A DNA stretch of 35,387 bases from a virus, in the IMG/VR virus record IMGVR_UViG_3300043411_001259, positions 1-35,387 of that record; one strand, written 5' to 3'. Position 1 is the first letter of the stretch; each line of letters opens with the position of its first letter. The position numbers and the translations under genes were made by a program. Below are positions 9,410 to 34,958 of this stretch, piece after piece. A model generated the notes under the pieces. The model was not told where the DNA came from. It searched no databases and saw only the letters and a list, made by a program, of their open reading frames with translations.

Positions 9410-9442
9410 CCAAGAGTGGCCAAGAGTGGCCGAGGTACATCT

Positions 9443-10180
9443 ATGTCCGAAGATCTTTTTATCCCGCCTATAGCCCCCGCGTACGGGAGCAACGACCAGG
9501 AGCTCTACCGCACCTGGAAAACAAACCCAAGCAAGGAGAACATGTCCAAGCTGGTCCAGGCCCTGATGCCTATCATCAACCGTGAGGTAACCAGACAGTC
9601 CGGGTCTGTAGCTACCAGCGTTCTTCGTGGAACGGGCATGGAGTGGGCCATCAAGGCCATCAAAAGTTACGACGACTCCAAGGGCGTCAAGCTCTCTACC
9701 CACGTTGCAAACTACGTGCAGAAGATCCGGCGTGTAAACTATACGTTCCAGAACGCAGCTCGTCTTCCTGAGAACCTGCAGATGGAGTACGGAAACTTCA
9801 AGGTGGCCAAGGACGATCTGTCCAACGAGCTCGGCCGAGATCCTACCGAGGTGGAGCTGGCCTCCAGGCTTGGGTGGAAGAAGCACACGGTAGCTAATCT
9901 CCAGAAGCGCCTGTACCAGGACGTGGTGGAATCCGGGTCAACCCAGAGTACGGCAGTCACCGGGTTCAACCCAAATGGCGTGCTGCTGGAGATGGTAAGA
10001 AACAGTCTGGACCCGCAAGAGGTCATGGTGTTTGATAACCAGATCAAGGAGAAGAAGGATCAGTTGTCCAATACCGACCTGGCGAAGAAGTTGGGGGTTA
10101 ACCAGAACCGGCTGCAGTACATCCGCAGAAAGGTAGTGGATAAAGCAAGGGCCCTGCAAGTAGAGATGGGGTCCTGGTAA
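9443..10180 (+). CDS. Sigma-70 family RNA polymerase sigma factor (245 aa)
   Basis: A region-2-like core lies at residues about 60-115 (EWAIKAIKSYDDSKGVKLST, then HVANYVQKIRR and RLPENLQ), equivalent to the helices of sigma factors that bind the beta' clamp and open the -10 element. Residues 128-150 (NELGRDPTEVELASRLGW) are a textbook sigma region 3 helix-turn-helix. Residues about 205-240 (LSNTDLAKKLGVNQNRLQYI) look like region 4 for -35 contact. I chose the ATG at 9443 because GAGGT lies 6 bases before it; an upstream GTG at 9416 lacks such a site. Phage sigma factors redirect host RNA polymerase, usually to late genes. Being inside the baseplate cluster, it would be made with the structural proteins. 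Confidence 0.85.
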   Translation: MSEDLFIPPIAPAYGSNDQELYRTWKTNPSKENMSKLVQALMPIINREVTRQSGSVATSVLRGTGMEWAIKAIKSYDDSKGVKLSTHVANYVQKIRRVNYTFQNAARLPENLQMEYGNFKVAKDDLSNELGRDPTEVELASRLGWKKHTVANLQKRLYQDVVESGSTQSTAVTGFNPNGVLLEMVRNSLDPQEVMVFDNQIKEKKDQLSNTDLAKKLGVNQNRLQYIRRKVVDKARALQVEMGSW

Positions 10181-21610: not shown

Positions 21611-21890
21611 TCTCTGTACCTCTCTTTGTTTTTTCCGAGTCTATCGCCCTCAGTACGTTGTCCCAGTCCTGCACGTCACACTCCATACCTGCGTGCCCCT
21701 TGGCTATTGCTTCACGGGCTTCCCTCTCTATCAAGTACAGCAGGTTGTCCTCCAGGATCGGAACGGTGGAGCGTAGCCAACTGCAGTAGCTTCCTACCGC
21801 GTATGTCTTCCGCCCAAGGTAATACCGGAAGGAGCCCACGATAACTTCGTCCGGTGCTTGCACCAGGTCATAAAACTGTCTCATTGCCAT
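21603..21890 (-). CDS. Hypothetical 95-aa protein
   Basis: I chose the ATG at 21890 because GGAGG lies 4 bases upstream; a longer frame to 21935 would lie in the resolvase gene without a ribosome site. The product begins MAMRQFYDLVQAPDEVIVGS and is aromatic and helical, with no recognised motif. It overlaps both neighbours. Confidence 0.65.
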   Translation of the reverse strand: MAMRQFYDLVQAPDEVIVGSFRYYLGRKTYAVGSYCSWLRSTVPILEDNLLYLIEREAREAIAKGHAGMECDVQDWDNVLRAIDSEKTKRGTENE

Positions 21891-22368
21891 ACTTCCTCCA
21901 CGCCATGTAACACAAACAGGTGGCATCCGCTTCATGGCTGTTCACTGCAGACGCCCCCGAGGCGGCTTTCGCAGCCGCACTACTAAACTTCTTGTCCATC
22001 GTTTTACTGGGGTTGGAAAACCCCTTGGTGACAACCAGGTGTTTGCACAGTATCGTCTTCCAGTCTATCGCTCTCCATAGGTCAACTTTCACACCCCTCT
22101 TCTGCAGGGCGTACTCTAAAGCCCCGATTACTTTCTGGGTGGACTCCGTGTCCTTGTTAGGGGTACCTCGTCCGTAGGTTACGTACCTCTCCATGAACGC
22201 TCCACGGATAGGGATACCCGCAGGAATGGCATCGTCCACCGCTTCTGCCAGGGTAGCAAACCCGGAGCAATCCACTGTTTTGGATAGAAGTATTTTCCCG
22301 TCCTGGTCCATGAGTACCACACCAAGGTTCTTCCAGCCAGGGTCTATTCCTAGGTAGTGCATGGGCAT
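21868..22368 (-). CDS. RuvC-like Holliday-junction resolvase (166 aa)
   Basis: An RNase H-fold pattern is visible: LGIDPGWKNLGVVLMD with catalytic D9, E60 in GAFMERYVTYG, and H145/D148 in NSHEADATCLCYMA. This order (Asp in first strand, Glu after the fourth, Asp/His in the C-terminal helix) fits RuvC-type nucleases of phages. Resolving branched DNA before packaging is the expected job. The gene starts just below a strong terminator that ends the noncoding RNA region. The ribosome site (CGGGAAC) is weak. Confidence 0.8.
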   Translation of the reverse strand: MPMHYLGIDPGWKNLGVVLMDQDGKILLSKTVDCSGFATLAEAVDDAIPAGIPIRGAFMERYVTYGRGTPNKDTESTQKVIGALEYALQKRGVKVDLWRAIDWKTILCKHLVVTKGFSNPSKTMDKKFSSAAAKAASGASAVNSHEADATCLCYMAWRKYGNETVL

Positions 22369-22380
22369 GTTCCCGGTTAC

Positions 22381-22415
22381 AAAAAAAGACAGCCCATATG
22401 TTACTACGGACTGCC
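22381..22415 (-). terminator. Intrinsic terminator of the second noncoding RNA
   Basis: An 8-bp stem (GGCAGTCC with GGGCTGTC, two G-U pairs) with a 12-base loop is followed on the - strand by seven T. It separates the structured RNA region from the resolvase gene. Confidence 0.75.
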
Positions 22416-22677
22416 TCAGCTTGCTAGGCTTGCGTTGGAATGTGCGACAGGGCCCTGAGCGAGCCGGCCGGATCCAGGGCCCTGAAGATTTAGGAGACCC
22501 GGGCGAAGCTCGGGTCGTACAAATCTTCAGGTTTTTCGCATACTTCAGTTTTGGGAAAGAAGGGAGTCGAAGGTAGCCCTCGACAATAGCTTGTGCACAA
22601 AATTACTTCGGTCGTACCCGCAATGGTTGCCCAGTGAGAGAGAACTCAGCTTTTGTATACAGCTAGATACCCTAGCT
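22416..22677 (-). ncRNA. Structured noncoding RNA (RNA-2) with own promoter and terminator
   Basis: No ORF of note lies here on either strand. Reading the - strand from a promoter-like site at 22684-22712, the elements are: AGCTAG-CTAGCT hairpin near 22660-22677; palindrome TTGTGCACAA at 22591-22600; hairpin GTCGAGGG-CTA-CCTTCGAC at 22566-22584, whose single odd pair is G-U only on this strand; an extended hairpin at 22481-22531 with an 11-bp outer stem and inner GACCCG-CGGGTC stem; GGCCCTG-CAGGGCC hairpin at 22451-22481; and the terminator. The GG-CTA-CC hairpin and its downstream long hairpin match the modules at 22895-23224. Family unknown. Confidence 0.6.
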
Positions 22678-22683
22678 ACTTTT

Positions 22684-22712
22684 GTTATACCCGGAAACCA
22701 AAAAAAAGTGAA
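22684..22712 (-). promoter_or_regulatory. Candidate promoter for RNA-2
   Basis: On the - strand TTCACT (4/6 to TTGACA) is followed by 17 bases and TATAAC (5/6 to TATAAT). It lies immediately after a terminator-like hairpin and immediately before the structured RNA. Confidence 0.5.
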
Positions 22713-22745
22713 AATAGAGCTGGACCCAGGTGGAGGGACCAGCTC
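22701..22745 (-). terminator. Terminator-like hairpin ending the first RNA block
   Basis: GAGCTGG pairs with CCAGCTC, followed inside by an A-A (on the other strand T-T) mismatch and a CCC-GGG stem, with a 7-base loop. On the - strand it is followed by TATTTTCAC and eight T, so it can act as an intrinsic terminator. Confidence 0.6.
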
Positions 22746-22894
22746 GAAGAACCTTCAAACTCGATGCTATTAATAACTTCCAGGACCGACTGGGCCCGAG
22801 GCAAGCGTAGCGCAGCCTGGGGCCAAGTGAGGGTGCCCTGGGTTACCCAGGGCTGGTTTTTCATACTTTGAAGGTGTAAATCTAACTACGCTCA
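22746..22894 (-). ncRNA. Structured RNA block B, closed by a 9-bp long-range helix
   Basis: ACCTTCAAA at 22867-22875 (- strand sense) pairs with TTTGAAGGT at 22751-22759, enclosing two hairpins: GCCCTGGG-TAA-CCCAGGGC at 22835-22853 and a branched GGCCC...GGGCC stem at 22793-22824 with an inner AGGC-GCCT and GCG-CTA-CGC tip. It begins with TGAGCGT, the word that also opens blocks C and D. Confidence 0.55.
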
Positions 22895-23071
22895 TTTCTT
22901 TCTTTAATTCTTGACCTGGAGTGTACCTGGTGCCCCGAGGGGCGTAGCTTGCGAAGGCCCGGTGGGCACGTGGTACACGGAAGGGTCAAGAGAAGTTGTC
23001 CCAGCGGTAGCCGCTGAGGAAGCAGTTTCCTGCTTTTTTTACGTACCGTAGTTAAAACTGTGTTACGCTCA
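22895..23071 (-). ncRNA. Structured RNA module C
   Basis: Reading the - strand: TGAGCGTAA, then TACGGT, then hairpin AAGCAG-GAAA-CTGCTT (23020-23035), hairpin CAGCGG-CTA-CCGCTG (23002-23016), then a long hairpin at 22911-22989 with stems TTGACC-GGTCAA, GTGTACC-GGTACAC and GTGCCC-GGGCAC. The order of elements matches module D although the stem sequences differ. Confidence 0.65.
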
Positions 23072-23224
23072 TTTTCTGAGAGGTTTTCCGGAACGGGAGC
23101 GGTCGGCGCAGCGCAGCGGAGCCGTGTAGCGGGAGTTCCGGAAGGAAAGTCGCCAGAGGTAGCCCCTGACTAACGCCTTGAAAGTTTCCTTGCAAGGGTT
23201 GTAGACCGTAACAATTAACGCTCA
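23072..23224 (-). ncRNA. Structured RNA module D
   Basis: Reading the - strand: TGAGCGTTA, then TACGGT, hairpin CCTTG...CAAGG with inner AAG-GAAA-CTT (23176-23197), hairpin CAGGGG-CTA-CCTCTG (23154-23168; one G-U pair, which would be an A-C mismatch on the other strand), then a long hairpin 23086-23143 closed by TTCCGGAAC-GTTCCGGAA. The same loops with different stems in modules C and D are the mark of a conserved RNA fold. Confidence 0.65.
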
Positions 23225-23252
23225 CCCAGGCAGATCCTTAGATCTGGCTGGG
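23225..23252 (-). other. Strong hairpin between the winged-helix gene and the RNA modules
   Basis: CCCAG and CAGATC on one side pair with GATCTG and CTGGG on the other across one mismatch, with a 4-base loop. It starts 8 bases after the stop of the 23261 gene. There is no T run, so it is more likely a processing or 3'-end protecting structure than an intrinsic terminator. Confidence 0.55.
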
Positions 23253-23260
23253 CTCCTTTC

Positions 23261-24160
23261 CTACCAGGCCGGCAGCATTTTCCAGCTGTACTGGAGCATT
23301 TCAAACATCTCCAGATGAGCTGGGGCTACACGTGGGTTGATCTCCCCGGGATTCAGGAATACCTTTCTGGCTAACGGAAGATCCGTAGCTTTATACGTGT
23401 CCCGCTTGCCGCGGACAATCAACCCTTCCTCCACCAATCCGTTGATAAGGTCTGACGGTTTCAGACGAAGGTACGTAGCTACCTCCGTCATGGTTAGACT
23501 CTTGGCCTTCATGGCCAGAGCCTTGTACCGGCCATGGAGCCATGTCATCTGGTCCTGAGCCTTCTCCGCGTCATTGCGGCGAGGCTTGTACTTCTTGGGG
23601 GCTTTCACCGGGGCGTGGGCTTGAGCCGTGACCTGCGCAGGCTCTGCGGCGAAGTCAAGGGCCAGTTGCACCGAGGGTTTCTGCTTCGTCTCCACTACTT
23701 TCAGAGGACGCCCCGCAGGTACAGACACCAGCGACACCGCTTCCACCACGCCTTGTAACTGGAAGTAGTCCCTGTTGCCGAGAACTTTCAGTTCCCTGAG
23801 CTCTTTCCCGATTTTCCCCAGGGAGGAGACAGCCTCTTGCTTGGAGGCACAGAGTCGAACCTGGTTCTTTCCGTGGTTCTTCAACTGGCTGGCAAACCCA
23901 TGTCGCACGCGGTGGATCGCGTATGACTTGTTACTCCCGATGGAACGGTGGGTTAACCGTGTGCAGAACGCACCCACTACCTTCTCCGAGAGTCCTGCGT
24001 TTTGCAGGGTTGCCTTCAGAGACACCAGAACTCGGTGGTCTTCTGTTCTTACCAGTACCACCCCTCGTTCTTCCTTGTGGAAAACCCCTTTCCGGACCAC
24101 GTCCGAAAACGAAGGGGATTTGCGACGGGGTTTACTGCTCTGTGGGACTACCTTTTGCAT
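23261..24160 (-). CDS. Putative DNA-binding protein with C-terminal winged-helix-like domain (299 aa)
   Basis: I take the ATG at 24160 with AGGAG 5 bases upstream rather than the GTG at 24187. The N-terminal part is Lys/Arg/Ser-rich. Residues about 55-100 (LKATLQNAGLSEKVVGAFCT, then HRVRHGFASQLKNHGK) are basic. After a Lys/Pro-rich linker, a helix-turn-helix segment (SLTMTEVATYLRLKPSDLIN, then GLVEEGLIVRGKRDTYKATD) resembles phage antirepressor/winged-helix domains. It is the gene directly upstream of the structured RNA tandem and likely co-transcribed with it. Regulatory or nucleic-acid-binding role is inferred. Confidence 0.6.
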   Translation of the reverse strand: MQKVVPQSSKPRRKSPSFSDVVRKGVFHKEERGVVLVRTEDHRVLVSLKATLQNAGLSEKVVGAFCTRLTHRSIGSNKSYAIHRVRHGFASQLKNHGKNQVRLCASKQEAVSSLGKIGKELRELKVLGNRDYFQLQGVVEAVSLVSVPAGRPLKVVETKQKPSVQLALDFAAEPAQVTAQAHAPVKAPKKYKPRRNDAEKAQDQMTWLHGRYKALAMKAKSLTMTEVATYLRLKPSDLINGLVEEGLIVRGKRDTYKATDLPLARKVFLNPGEINPRVAPAHLEMFEMLQYSWKMLPAW

Positions 24161-24177
24161 ACATACTCCTCGGTGCC

Positions 24178-24462
24178 TCACCGGCACTCATTGATTGCGT
24201 AAAGCGTGGACAGGGACGCCCACAGTTTGTCGTACAGCTCCTGCATACTCACCGTCATCAACGGAGAATCCATCGGGATTGTCACCTCTACAAAGAGCCC
24301 GTATTGCTCGTCCTCTTCATAGTAGGTGTCAGCCACATCCGGGCTGTTAGTAATAAGCTGCTCCACCCTCCTGAACTTAGAGTGGAGCTCGTGGTCCAAC
24401 TCCCCCGGCTCCCGAAAAGGAAACCGGAACGTGGCCGTTATGTCTACGGGTGCACCCCTCAT
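24178..24462 (-). CDS. Hypothetical 94-aa protein
   Basis: The product begins MRGAPVDITATFRFPFREPG and has an alternating strand-helix pattern with an acidic loop (VADTYYEEDEQYG). No family recognised. It overlaps the zinc-ribbon gene upstream by 4 bases (ATG within the stop region), indicating coupling. Confidence 0.65.
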   Translation of the reverse strand: MRGAPVDITATFRFPFREPGELDHELHSKFRRVEQLITNSPDVADTYYEEDEQYGLFVEVTIPMDSPLMTVSMQELYDKLWASLSTLYAINECR

Positions 24463-25377: not shown

Positions 25378-25968
25378 TTAGGAAGGATACAGACTCTCAA
25401 AAGTCTTATACCTGTTTTCCTGTGTTTTCATAACTTCCCTTCTACAGTGGAGCTCTTCTGTTAGCTCCTCTCTAGGGACGGGAGCGTACTCCCAGTTCTC
25501 ACAGCACATGGACACATACCGGAGATCCTGCTCTCCGGGTAAAGCGGGGAGCATGATGGGCTTGCGGTGGGTGTGTCCGTGAATGTTGAAGTGCCACCTG
25601 GCTACTTCCTGAGGGTGAATCGGTATGTGTGTCGCCACAAGCCGAAACCCCTTGATACCAATATCGGTAGAACATCCTTCGATTTTCTCGAAGAAGCGTC
25701 GATGGCACTTGTCGATAACCGGGCTACTGTTGCTTCGCAGTATGTCGTGGTTACCGGTAACCAGGTACTTGGTTCCGTTCAACCTGGCGTACATCCTCGG
25801 GTCCCCCGCATCCCCCAGCACCCAGACTACGTCCCTCTTACGGACTACTGCGTTCCAGTTAGCGATAATGACTTCGTCGTGCTCTTCGATCGTAAGGAAC
25901 TCCTTCCTGTATTTCAGGATCCCTGCCTGACCCAGGTGTAGGTCAGACAGGTAGAAGACGTTGCTCAC
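25378..25968 (-). CDS. Calcineurin-like metallophosphoesterase (196 aa)
   Basis: The family motifs are all present: YLSDLHLG (D9, H11), LGDAGD (D53), TGNHD (N73-H74-D75), ATHIPIHP (H114) and HGHTH (H130-H134). These residues bind two metals. Small phage enzymes of this type are related to YfcE/phosphodiesterases and may act on nucleotides or nucleic acid ends. The start is GTG overlapping the ATPase stop; the ribosome site is weak. Confidence 0.85.
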   Translation of the reverse strand: MSNVFYLSDLHLGQAGILKYRKEFLTIEEHDEVIIANWNAVVRKRDVVWVLGDAGDPRMYARLNGTKYLVTGNHDILRSNSSPVIDKCHRRFFEKIEGCSTDIGIKGFRLVATHIPIHPQEVARWHFNIHGHTHRKPIMLPALPGEQDLRYVSMCCENWEYAPVPREELTEELHCRREVMKTQENRYKTFESLYPS

Positions 25969-28258: not shown

Positions 28259-28521
28259 CCCTCAAACTCCTCGGTCCACTGGTCCCCAGGCTCAGCCTCC
28301 CTCTCCGCGTCCAGGCTGGTGGGGTCTATCGCCCCCTTCTGGTTGCGGATCTTCGCTACCTTGGGGGGAGGCGGCTCCAGCGGTTTCTGTGCTGCCCGGA
28401 TACGCGCCGGGTCGTAGTGCTCCACCTGGGTTATCTTCCCCCCTTTGGCCAGGAACTCCGCTGTCTGCTGGGCGATCTCTCTACTCAGCTCCTCCTGTGG
28501 GGTGAGACTTCTTTCTAGCAT
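28255..28521 (-). CDS. Hypothetical 88-aa protein
   Basis: The product begins MLERSLTPQEELSREIAQQT, is helical at the N-terminus and acidic and disordered at the C-terminus, with a Pro-rich stretch in the centre (PLEPPPPKVAKI). AGGAG lies 8 bases before the ATG. It overlaps the HNH-like gene by 41 bases. Confidence 0.6.
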   Translation of the reverse strand: MLERSLTPQEELSREIAQQTAEFLAKGGKITQVEHYDPARIRAAQKPLEPPPPKVAKIRNQKGAIDPTSLDAEREAEPGDQWTEEFEG

Positions 28522-29029
28522 GCTGGTTGCTCCTTCTCCGGTTAAGCCCCAAGGACATAGTCTTGTCCTCGAGGTATTTCATGTTGGATTTGAACAGAGC
28601 CTTGGAAAAAACACTGTCTATATCTTCCGGGTTGGAAATACCCATGTGGATATAGGAGTGCTGATCTGCGGTTAGCAAGACACATTTCTCCAGCTCTGTG
28701 GTTACCTTCTTCATCCACTTATCGGTTGGCTCAAGGGAGCGGATTCCCCGCCCGACTCCACCGATGTCGTGATCCTTCTCCTTTGGGTCCACGTGGTGAA
28801 ACTGCATCACCGCAGGGTGTGTCCTCTTTCTGGTTATACCACAATACCCGACACCCTTTGCTCCGACAAAGGAGTAGACGAAGGCTACCTTGAATAAGTA
28901 CCGCGTCTCCCGTGTGTCCAGCCTACGACCTTCTGGCCTGGACTTGAAGAATTCGTCAGCTACGGAACGGAACCCTTTAGTGACCCACTTCAGGGAGAAC
29001 GCCTTGTTATCGGATACGGAATAATCCAC
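28481..29029 (-). CDS. HNH-like endonuclease lacking the zinc-knuckle cysteines (182 aa)
   Basis: FHHVDPKEKDHDIGG (H78-H79) and ELEKCVLLTADQHSYIH (H124, H128) match HNH nucleases. Compared with the intact enzyme at 34281-34958, which has CxxC pairs here, this one has only one Cys before the HHVDP block (C63) and ADQH where CHNCH is usual, so the structural zinc site is gone. It may be a degenerate or divergent homing-type nuclease. The start is GTG; its ribosome site is buried in a hairpin (see the regulatory entry). Confidence 0.65.
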   Translation of the reverse strand: MDYSVSDNKAFSLKWVTKGFRSVADEFFKSRPEGRRLDTRETRYLFKVAFVYSFVGAKGVGYCGITRKRTHPAVMQFHHVDPKEKDHDIGGVGRGIRSLEPTDKWMKKVTTELEKCVLLTADQHSYIHMGISNPEDIDSVFSKALFKSNMKYLEDKTMSLGLNRRRSNQHARKKSHPTGGAE

Positions 29030-30846: not shown

Positions 30847-30880
30847 CTCACTCTCCCAAAAAAAGGTTGTTGTAGAAAGC

Positions 30881-31015
30881 CGGAAAAGTTTTTATGACCT
30901 GCACAGAGGGGGTCAAGGAAGGAGGAGTACCCCTATGTGAAAACCGTGAGGTCTTCACTGGGCCATCCGAGGACTCGGTCGAGTCGCCCCTGTGCAGGTC
31001 ATAAAAACTTTTCCG
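30881..31015. repeat. Perfect 26-bp inverted repeat with 83-base spacer
   Basis: Arms at 30881-30906 and 30990-31015 are exact reverse complements (CGGAAAAGTT... and ...AACTTTTCCG). After a one-base bulge the stem continues with three G-C pairs. The spacer can form GACTCG-CGAGTC and other small stems. No duplicated target site is seen, so a transposon remnant is not supported. Confidence 0.9.
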
Positions 31016-31017
31016 TT

Positions 31018-31080
31018 AAACAAAGAGAGGGGCCGCCCAAGAGGCGCACGCGGAAAGCTCCCGGTTAGGCAGCCCCTCTC
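31018..31080 (-). terminator. GC-rich hairpin with T-rich tail downstream of the polymerase gene
   Basis: GAGAGGGGC pairs with GCCCCTCTC; the stem extends by a G-U and GCC-GGC pairs. On the - strand it is followed by TTTGTTT. It can serve as intrinsic terminator for the DNA polymerase transcript, or as the middle domain of RNA-3. Confidence 0.55.
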
Positions 31081-31118
31081 AAAACACAGGTGGGAACGGA
31101 AACCCTTCCTGTATATTA

Positions 31119-31148
31119 CTTATACCACAATCACCTGCCAGATTGTAA
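31119..31148 (-). promoter_or_regulatory. Candidate extended -10 promoter upstream of RNA-3
   Basis: On the - strand TTACAA, 18 bases, TATAAG, with TGG just before the -10 (extended -10, TGnTATAA). It lies in the gap just after the polymerase stop codon. Confidence 0.5.
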
Positions 31149-31153
31149 CGGGC

Positions 31154-32701
31154 CTACGCAGCGTAGAGCAAGCACTCCTCGAACTTGTTAGGGTTCAACT
31201 CCCGTAGTGCATTCTCCACCTCTCCCTGGGTAACCCCACGTCGTACTGTGGTCAGCTCCCCCCAGGAGTACCCGATCTCCACGTCGGTACCGATAGGGAA
31301 GGTCAGCCAGTCGAATTGCTCCTGCGGCCAGTCATCCATACAGACAAAGCAGTTGTCTATCGCCTGAGCCACCTTCTTCAGCGGGGACTCCGTCTCGATA
31401 GAGTCGTACACCGTAGCCAGACTGTTAACCCCGATCAGCTTGTTCCTGCGGTTCAATTCCCCGAAGGCTACCAGCCCCAATGTAGAGGCAGTGGACTGTA
31501 TCATCACGTTCTGGGAGTTTCTCAGGGAAGCGTTGTACGCTGCAGTGCGACGGAAGCAGGGCAAGGTTCCGTAAGTCATCTTTCTCTGCCCGAACCGGGT
31601 GAAGATGTACTGGTTGGCGATGGCCATCTTGTGGCAGTCTTCCACGAAGTCCTTGATACGAGGGAATGCACCGAAGTACAAGGCAACCAGATTCTCTGCC
31701 TCTTTCTGGGTAATTCCCAGACCTGCAGCAATTCCGCCCAAGGAGGAGCCGTACAGGATACCGAAGGTCACCGCCTTGGCGTTGCCTCTCAGTACCTTGT
31801 ACTTCTTGTGAAGCGGGTGGTTTTTGTCTTCGATGGCCCCATGGAACTCCTCGTAGGGAATGCCGTTGATTACGGAAGCCGTGTAGGAGTGGAAGTCGAG
31901 GCCTCCAAGAATTGCTTCCAACATCTTCTCATCCTGGCATAGTGCAGCCAGGATTTTCACCTCGCACGAACTGAAGTCAGCAGTGACAAAGATGTACCCG
32001 CGAGGAACCGTGTAACACTCCCGTACATTGTACCCGTGTACTGGTTTAGGCAGGTTCAGCAAGTTCGGGTTATCCGAGGATATCCTGTGTGAGCTGGTCC
32101 CATGGAGGTTGTAATTCGGGTGTACCCTCCCATCTCTCTTGACCCAGTCTCCGATGTAGGTTTTGATGAACGAGGAATGAACGCTCGATATATCGGTGTA
32201 CATCCGCAGGCTCTTCAGCCAGGTCAGCCCCGTGGACTCCTCTAACGCTTTTATCGCGTCTCCGCTTACCGCCGGCTGGCCCTTCTTGGTAAACACGGTC
32301 ACAGGGAACCCGAGGTCCCCGTATAGCATCTGCGACAATTCCGTGCCGGAACCCAGGTTGATACTCTTCCCCATCCCTGTGAACACCTCTTCTTCCAGGG
32401 TAGCCAGCTGCATACACATACGCTGGTCATACTGGCGATTGAGAACCTGGTCGTAGAGAATCCCGTTGATCTCCATGTCCAGCATGAACTCCATTGCCGG
32501 ATGCTTGATGTTCCTGGCTTCGGACAGGATAGATGGTGCGAATACCGACTCCTCCTTCCCATCTTTGAACTGTTTGTACTTCACCTGGTTCTTGATGGAG
32601 GGCATTAGCCTCCGGAGCAGCTCATAGGTCACTAACGCGTCTACCCCTGCATACGAATACAATCGCTCTGAGGGGAAGTCTTCATAGGATTTAACAGCCA
32701 T
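31154..32701 (-). CDS. Family A DNA polymerase, polymerase domain with only the last exonuclease motif (515 aa)
   Basis: Polymerase motifs: TSSHRISSDNPNLLNLPK (202-219), motif A ADFSSCEVKILA (D242, E247), motif B RGNAKAVTFGILYG (R305, K309, F313, Y317), motif C TVYDSIE (D433). The N-terminus reads LYSYAGVDALVTYELLRRL, equivalent to exonuclease motif III (Y17, D21; compare T7 DNA polymerase), but motifs I and II are absent. The frame has an upstream stop at 32761-32759, so no extension is possible. The protein therefore starts inside the 3'-5' exonuclease domain. The rest of the exonuclease may be a separate gene or lost. The ATG has only a weak ribosome site (CGG at distance 9). Confidence 0.85.
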   Translation of the reverse strand: MAVKSYEDFPSERLYSYAGVDALVTYELLRRLMPSIKNQVKYKQFKDGKEESVFAPSILSEARNIKHPAMEFMLDMEINGILYDQVLNRQYDQRMCMQLATLEEEVFTGMGKSINLGSGTELSQMLYGDLGFPVTVFTKKGQPAVSGDAIKALEESTGLTWLKSLRMYTDISSVHSSFIKTYIGDWVKRDGRVHPNYNLHGTSSHRISSDNPNLLNLPKPVHGYNVRECYTVPRGYIFVTADFSSCEVKILAALCQDEKMLEAILGGLDFHSYTASVINGIPYEEFHGAIEDKNHPLHKKYKVLRGNAKAVTFGILYGSSLGGIAAGLGITQKEAENLVALYFGAFPRIKDFVEDCHKMAIANQYIFTRFGQRKMTYGTLPCFRRTAAYNASLRNSQNVMIQSTASTLGLVAFGELNRRNKLIGVNSLATVYDSIETESPLKKVAQAIDNCFVCMDDWPQEQFDWLTFPIGTDVEIGYSWGELTTVRRGVTQGEVENALRELNPNKFEECLLYAA

Positions 32702-32758: not shown

Positions 32759-32932
32759 TTACCCGAGCCATCCCATTATGGTGAGGTAGGTGCAAGCGAT
32801 CGCACCTACCAAAGCGGCCGCGCTCAAGAGCGTGGCAATCACAACTTCCCTGTCGTTCGCACGCTCCGCTTCTGCGGAGCTTAACTCACGGGCCCTCCGA
32901 AAATGGGGGGCCCAATCATTGCGTGCGCTCAT
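32759..32932 (-). CDS. Small membrane protein (57 aa)
   Basis: The ORF is short but has a strong ribosome site (GAGGAGGT, 5 bases before the ATG). The product begins MSARNDWAPHFRRARELSSA and ends with one hydrophobic segment (residues about 30-55, VVIATLLSAAALVGAIACTY). It is a tail-anchored type of small phage membrane protein; holin or antiholin are options but unproven. The DNA of this gene is unusually rich in self-complementary words, for example GGTAGGTGC with GCACCTACC and GCTCCGC with GCGGAGC. Confidence 0.65.
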   Translation of the reverse strand: MSARNDWAPHFRRARELSSAEAERANDREVVIATLLSAAALVGAIACTYLTIMGWLG

Positions 32933-34245: not shown

Positions 34246-34280
34246 GATAATACCTCTATTGAGTTTTGTTGGGGGTTGAA

Positions 34281-34958
34281 ATGAGCGGTATTGTTTTGAA
34301 AACGGTTAAGGCAAAGCTTTACTGCGTTGAGTGTGGAACGGAGTTGACGGGGAAGCAGGAGAAGTTTTGTAGTCCTTATTGCAGTATGAGGTTTCATACT
34401 AACCTAGCCCGTGAAAGAGGTACCGGAGGGTACCTAAATAGCCCTACCTCCAGAAAATACGAGCGTTGTGTAGAGTGTGGAAAACCCCTATCTGGGAACC
34501 AAAAGAAGTTTTGTAGTCCTACCTGTCGTGATAAGTCTCCCAAAAAGAGGGAAAGGGTGAGAGCTTCCCGAGGCACAAAAACGCAAAAGGCTAAGGTGTA
34601 CTATGTACTTCTCAGGGGTGGGTGCTGTCAAGAATGCGGGTACCACAAAAATATAGCGTCTTTATGTTTTCATCACCTAGATCCTTCAAAAAAGACACTA
34701 AGTTTAAACTGCGGCGTTCTTAGTAGTACCGAGGAGTCCGTAGTTGTGGCTGAGCTGAAAAACTGTGTACTCCTCTGCCACAACTGCCACAGCGAGCTAC
34801 ACAACCCAGAACTGGAAGGCCTGTTAGACCCTCCCGTCACCAGGCCCGTATTACCAACCCCAGATCCTCGTTCTGACACTTCCCATGAGAACGTAGTTTC
34901 TCTTCCAGTGAAGCGTACAAAGGGAGAAACCTCTCCTGTGGTAGCCCATACAACCTGA
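34281..34958 (+). CDS. HNH endonuclease with two tandem zinc knuckles (225 aa)
   Basis: I take the ATG at 34281, with GGGGGT 4 bases upstream, not the one at 34266. Two repeated zinc motifs are visible: C15, C18, C30, C34 (YCVECGTELTGKQEKFCSPY) and C63, C66, C78, C82 (CVECGKPLSGNQKKFCSPTC). The HNH core follows: C116-C119, FHHLDPSKK (H131-H132) and NCVLLCHNCHSELH (C166, C169, H170, H174). It is on the opposite strand to its neighbours, has AT-rich stretches and is the only + strand gene after 18.7 kb. Homing-type nucleases often enter genomes this way. It may be cut-and-copy mobile. Confidence 0.8.
   Translation: MSGIVLKTVKAKLYCVECGTELTGKQEKFCSPYCSMRFHTNLARERGTGGYLNSPTSRKYERCVECGKPLSGNQKKFCSPTCRDKSPKKRERVRASRGTKTQKAKVYYVLLRGGCCQECGYHKNIASLCFHHLDPSKKTLSLNCGVLSSTEESVVVAELKNCVLLCHNCHSELHNPELEGLLDPPVTRPVLPTPDPRSDTSHENVVSLPVKRTKGETSPVVAHTT

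Follow-up and report, generated by a model that had tools for sequence, protein, structure and literature searches.

What does a phage keep in an 892-base gap between two of its genes, and what might it do there? The gap lies in an IMG/VR virus record of 35,387 bases, all of which was analysed here and is called the window. It spans positions 22369-23260, from the stop of a 308-aa orphan gene (23261) to the start of a RuvC-like gene (22368), close to the roughly 890 bases given in a preliminary description made from the sequence. No longer interval lacking an 80-aa open reading frame occurs in the window or in the examined stretches of related contigs, where the longest measures 510 bases. The best 40-codon log-odds for coding are 0.07 on the minus strand and 0.11 on the plus strand of the gap versus 0.40-0.60 in neighbouring genes, and the gap is non-coding on both strands. 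Folded whole, its minus strand reaches an MFE of −354 kcal/mol and a z of −9.7 (20 dinucleotide shuffles), whereas the plus strand folds more weakly with a z of −4.4. A sliding scan of 160-base pieces over the whole window gives z values of −4.6 (22721) and −4.5 (22881) in the gap, which places it among the better-folding stretches and not as the best, so its strength lies in its length and repeated domains. We hold with high confidence that the gap encodes structured RNAs built of paralogous domains (Table 1).

Table 1. Predicted elements of the gap and its flanking genes, in minus-strand order.
Element	Position	Strand	Basis or remark
Upstream gene: 308-aa orphan protein	23261..24187	-	
Entire structured non-coding stretch, probably two transcripts	22381..23252	-	MFE z, no coding signal, longest gap
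Lead hairpin CCCAG.CAGATC / GATCTG.CTGGG	23225..23252	-	Follows the upstream stop codon directly
First TGAGCGT word	23218..23224	-	Can pair with the UUACGGUC strand also used by the D closing helix (alternative local hairpin, longer folds)
Module D, four-way junction	23061..23213	-	Predicted fold
Module D helix P0	23213-23207/23067-23061	-	
Module D helix P1 (GAAA)	23197-23176	-	
Module D helix P2 (GG-CUA-CC)	23170-23152	-	
Module D helix P3	23143-23086	-	
Module C, four-way junction	22881..23056	-	Predicted fold
Module C helix P0	23056-23047/22890-22881	-	
Module C helix P1 (GAAA)	23035-23020	-	
Module C helix P2	23018-23000	-	
Module C helix P3	22991-22909	-	
Module B	22751..22875	-	Closing helix ACCUUCAAA/UUUGAAGGU
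Module B P2-like hairpin GCCCUGGG-UAA-CCCAGGGC	22853-22835	-	
Module B long hairpin	22824-22793	-	
Terminator-like hairpin GAGCUGG..CCAGCUC, then U-rich tail	22700..22745	-	Sequence and fold
GGTATAA promoter-like motif, for transcript A	22685..22691	-	Motif enrichment and context
Module A	22474..22675	-	P0 CUAGGG/CCCUGG, long P1
Module A helix P2 (GG-CUA-CC)	22584-22566	-	
Module A helix P3	22531-22481	-	
Intrinsic terminator-like hairpin with U7	22381..22416	-	Directly before ruvC
Downstream gene: RuvC-like Holliday junction resolvase	21868..22368	-	Conserved in phage family

The structural genes of the window are syntenic with those of Salmonella phage Arash and Vibrio phage D69 at protein identities mostly of 22-41%, and a group of IMG/VR contigs, some 172-183 kb long, share its baseplate gene or its ruvC gene; a search for baseplate-gene relatives in genome contigs returned none. 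The main genes of the window lie on the plus strand to ~18.7 kb and thereafter mostly on the minus strand. A homologue search with the 308-aa orphan protein found none, and its AlphaFold model (pLDDT 38) is too poor for use. Elsewhere in the window, a DNA polymerase frame (31154-32701, minus strand; 515 aa) matches a 1445-position polymerase profile only from position 797 onward, and the polymerase homologues in Arash and D69 match the profile in two pieces. Two proteins, at 28481-29029 and 34266-34958, carry HNH-endonuclease-like motifs by eye and both match one stretch of L077. A short membrane-protein-like frame of fewer than 60 codons, with a Shine-Dalgarno sequence by eye, lies at 32760-32932 on the minus strand, where folding is likewise good (z −3.8).

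Judged by sequence, modules D and C are paralogues: their alignment over most of their length is matched by 0 of 500 shuffles. The likeness of modules B and A to them is weak (as good in shuffles: D-B 11/500, C-B 6/500, D-A 36/500, C-A 157/500). Folding each module with its 3′ flank pairs the D start UGUUACG with CGUAACA of TGAGCGTAACA at 23071 (pair probabilities 0.74-1.0) and the C start AACUACG with CGUAGUU of TGAGCGTAGTT at 22894 (0.99-1.0). The TGAGCGT words, read in the preliminary description as module starts, are indeed present, but those at 23071-23065 and 22894-22888 therefore form the 3′ side of the helix that closes the module before them, so that D and C become predicted four-way junctions with a closing helix P0, a GAAA hairpin P1, a GG-CUA-CC hairpin P2 and a long hairpin P3. 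Closing-helix length is significant in C (p about 0.016) and marginal in D (p 0.064 counting Watson-Crick pairs alone, 0.47 once G-U is allowed); in longer folds the D closing helix is lost and its 5′ strand pairs with the upstream TGAGCGTT, a predicted rearrangement that could be either a switch or an artefact of the folding. Across P0, P1 and P2, the 21 aligned pairs of D and C divide into 12 that are the same, eight that are double-changed and still paired, none changed on one side and one broken, a count that leans towards pairing because the arms were hand-chosen and hand-aligned from predicted helices. Sequence is kept at the tips and joining bases, with GG-CUA-CC in D, C and A and with GGAAAC, UACGGU and AUGAG in D and C. 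From sequence and folding we propose that D and C arose when a domain made up of a closing helix plus three hairpins was duplicated.

P2 is an 8-bp hairpin with a three-base loop and compensatory stems that occurs in four copies (D, C, A and B), its tip reading GG-CUA-CC in D, C and A while the loop of B is UAA instead. These copies align without gaps, 32 of 32 cells being paired with double changes in four of the eight pairs, and the covariation score is 0.83, against 0.26 for shuffles and no more than 0.15 with the partner slid. Only three GGCTACC hairpins of at least five pairs exist in the window (23152-23170, 23000-23018 and 22566-22584). A P2 covariance model, R1, finds exactly four strong sites there, in D, C, A and B, all with E <1e-5; it was built from those sites, which match by construction, and the next non-overlapping site has E 0.18. 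The hand-picked stems contain seven G-U pairs versus one A.C mismatch on the minus strand, in agreement with an RNA read from that strand, so the "only" in the earlier statement that odd positions become G-U only on the minus strand is slightly too strong. The bias is absent from an automatic, unselected stem search (25 versus 27).

Taken together, the folding, the D-C comparison and the P2 family uphold the preliminary description of a structured minus-strand RNA with tandem paralogous modules and covarying stems. Its modules C and D and partial third, A, are present with GAAA hairpins in C and D, GG-CUA-CC hairpins and long hairpins; to this count we add module B, whose copy of the 8-bp hairpin has a UAA loop. 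A pseudoknot in B between UGAGCGUAG and the loop of the long hairpin, judged by eye only, was set aside as not clearly beyond chance. Separately, a 14-nt inverted match (93%) links 22742-22755 behind module B with 22324-22337 at the ruvC coding start, and could be chance.

A terminator-like hairpin and U-rich tail follow B, a GGTATAA motif comes next, and A ends in a terminator-like hairpin with U7, an order that points to two transcripts rather than one; on this sequence evidence the division into D-C-B and A is probable. The hairpin behind B was missed by a simple terminator scan, in which loops are limited to 8 bases. GGTATAA occurs 11 times in the window versus 2.5 expected (0 of 100 shuffles), eight times on the minus strand and in several cases shortly upstream of genes; the first 45 kb of Arash hold 10 versus 2.4 expected, nine on the minus strand, and a related contig holds 6 versus 1.0. 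Across the window phage, Arash and the related contig (L005; L036), the enrichment is about four- to six-fold and mostly on the minus strand. The motif is a putative promoter element of the family and may be recognised by a sigma factor that the family itself encodes (window 9416-10180). Transcript 1 would consist of the lead hairpin, D, C and B, about 560 nt, as the 3′ portion of an operon that possibly begins at a promoter-like motif at 25412 and would end at the terminator-like hairpin 22745-22700. Transcript 2 would be A, about 300 nt in front of ruvC, starting just past the GGTATAA at 22691 and ending at the terminator-like hairpin 22416-22381. A second strongly structured non-coding stretch, region E (30847-31153, minus strand; z −9.6), follows the DNA polymerase stop codon. 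GGTATAA stands at 31126, and a stem of close to 30 bp, paired almost perfectly, encloses a branched interior; Rfam gave nothing approaching a gathering score, and the only phage match covers 27 bases (E 0.03).

Rfam returned no match in the gap at gathering scores and, relaxed to E 5, nothing except one chance lncRNA match, in line with the earlier failure to match the locus to GOLLD or ROOL. A distant blastn search of phages and plasmids gave only short matches of 31-47 bases (E 0.07-0.8). In viral DNA the pattern TGAGCGT..TACGGT..GGAAAC occurs in 30 stretches, none with the following hairpin, and P2 patterns occur in 60 viral and 18 genome stretches, nearly all within long open frames. Three P2-pattern stretches outside long frames (L098, L103 and L119) were rejected, two lying at contig ends and no P1 or P3 being seen around them. 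R1 found no homologue in 13 related phage records and 26 loci, and its best match outside the window (G003, E 0.002) sits inside a coding gene. A module model, R2, holds only P0 and P2 as pairs because MAFFT gave no D-C alignment of P1 and P3; it finds only D and C, with none in 18 related records and none in 274 Gammaproteobacteria under stricter filters and without a positive control. The gaps before ruvC in six relatives, homologous by position, have no excess folding (z 0.1 to −1.1) and were taken for small coding genes. The gap RNAs are best read as lineage-specific and, with no relative in any database searched, may be a new phage RNA family; the searched sets may omit the records nearest to the window, and close relatives may thus have gone unnoticed. 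What had been called direct evidence of selection on RNA structure stands between copies inside one genome, and no between-species homologue was found.

As to function, we tentatively favour two minus-strand phage ncRNAs acting in trans as multivalent protein binders, either decoy or scaffold, a reading in which transcription, the transcript division, protein binding and the role in trans are all inferred. The RNAs would offer one protein several copies of a similar hairpin tip, and their stems would drift by compensatory change while tips and joining bases stay. Since the stems are preserved as pairs but the tips and joining bases as sequence, the tips and joining bases are the likely contact sites, and the presence of one P2 tip in both putative transcripts suggests a common binding partner more than control of a single gene in cis. 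The paralogous domains thus serve as an internal replicate that separates parts kept by pairing from parts kept by sequence, which makes the likely contact sites directly testable even without homologues. Counting against this explanation are the position of module A, where a ruvC leader would be, the weak likeness of B and A to D and C, the marginal length of the D closing helix and its loss in longer folds, and the lack of a homologue in the sets searched. A fuller version, which we consider somewhat doubtful, is a new phage RNA class in which a four-way-junction domain was duplicated in one transcript, P2 also occurs in a second, and the tip captures a host or phage protein.

Ranking close behind multivalent binding in trans, by our inference, is a role in cis, itself rather unlikely, in which A would be a leader and terminator attenuating ruvC and D-C-B a 3′ UTR protecting or ending the upstream operon mRNA. 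Module A does lie between the promoter-like motif and the ruvC start, with the terminator-like hairpin ~13 nt before the start codon, and region E is laid out alike, with promoter-like motif, structure and then gene p30022; yet the same P2 hairpin stands both behind the upstream operon and before ruvC, and the six relatives lack excess folding before ruvC. Similar size, phage origin and an extensively structured, multi-branched fold would also suit a large ornate RNA-only assembly of the GOLLD, ROOL or OLE kind, which the empty Rfam search, the probable split into two transcripts and perhaps the lack of tRNA in the 35-kb window render improbable.

The several inverted repeats, the adjoining RuvC-like resolvase and the unselected stem search lacking G-U strand bias are what DNA-level palindromes might give, as a replication or recombination site or as REP/MITE-like mobile hairpins beside ruvC. 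Against these speak the strand-biased folding excess (z −9.7 versus −4.4), G-U pairs mostly on one strand in the main stems, copies that differ in stems but keep loops, unlike recent mobile copies, and the lack of further copies in the window, and we give palindromes slightly less credence than an ornate assembly. Chance intergenic hairpins without function would fit the lack of a homologue anywhere searched, but the whole-gap fold, the D-C paralogy and the eight double changes with no one-sided change make them very improbable.

To our knowledge, phage RNAs this large and complex are few, and most still await a function. Proximity to tRNA islands is common though not strict in GOLLD and ROOL; a tRNA search found none in the window, which covers 35 kb of a genome that exceeds 170 kb in relatives. 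Many GOLLD RNAs are longer than 800 nt and one ROOL measures 659 nt, and GOLLD, ROOL and OLE form homo-oligomeric RNA assemblies (PMC12286853). The gap RNAs resemble GOLLD and ROOL as large, multi-branched, phage-borne RNAs and differ in matching none of the Rfam covariance models for GOLLD, ROOL and OLE and in having tandem paralogous domains, probably on two transcripts in the window phage. Protein-sponge RNAs of the CsrB/CsrC type repeat one hairpin tip along a transcript, a likeness to the gap RNAs in logic only: sponges of CsrA/RsmE present GGA in hairpin loops on many small hairpins, whereas the gap RNAs are few large junction domains with a repeated tip of GG-CUA-CC or GG-UAA-CC. ToxI of type III toxin-antitoxin systems consists of tandem, near-identical RNA repeats of ~36 nt with a terminator between them and a protein gene, and the gap RNAs share the tandem repeats and a terminator-like hairpin before a protein gene; their units are 125-200 nt and diverged, and the gene downstream is RuvC-like rather than a type III toxin and is kept throughout the phage family where the RNA is absent. 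The gap RNAs do show compensatory changes between copies and strand-biased folding, as expected of a structured phage ncRNA with paralogous domains.
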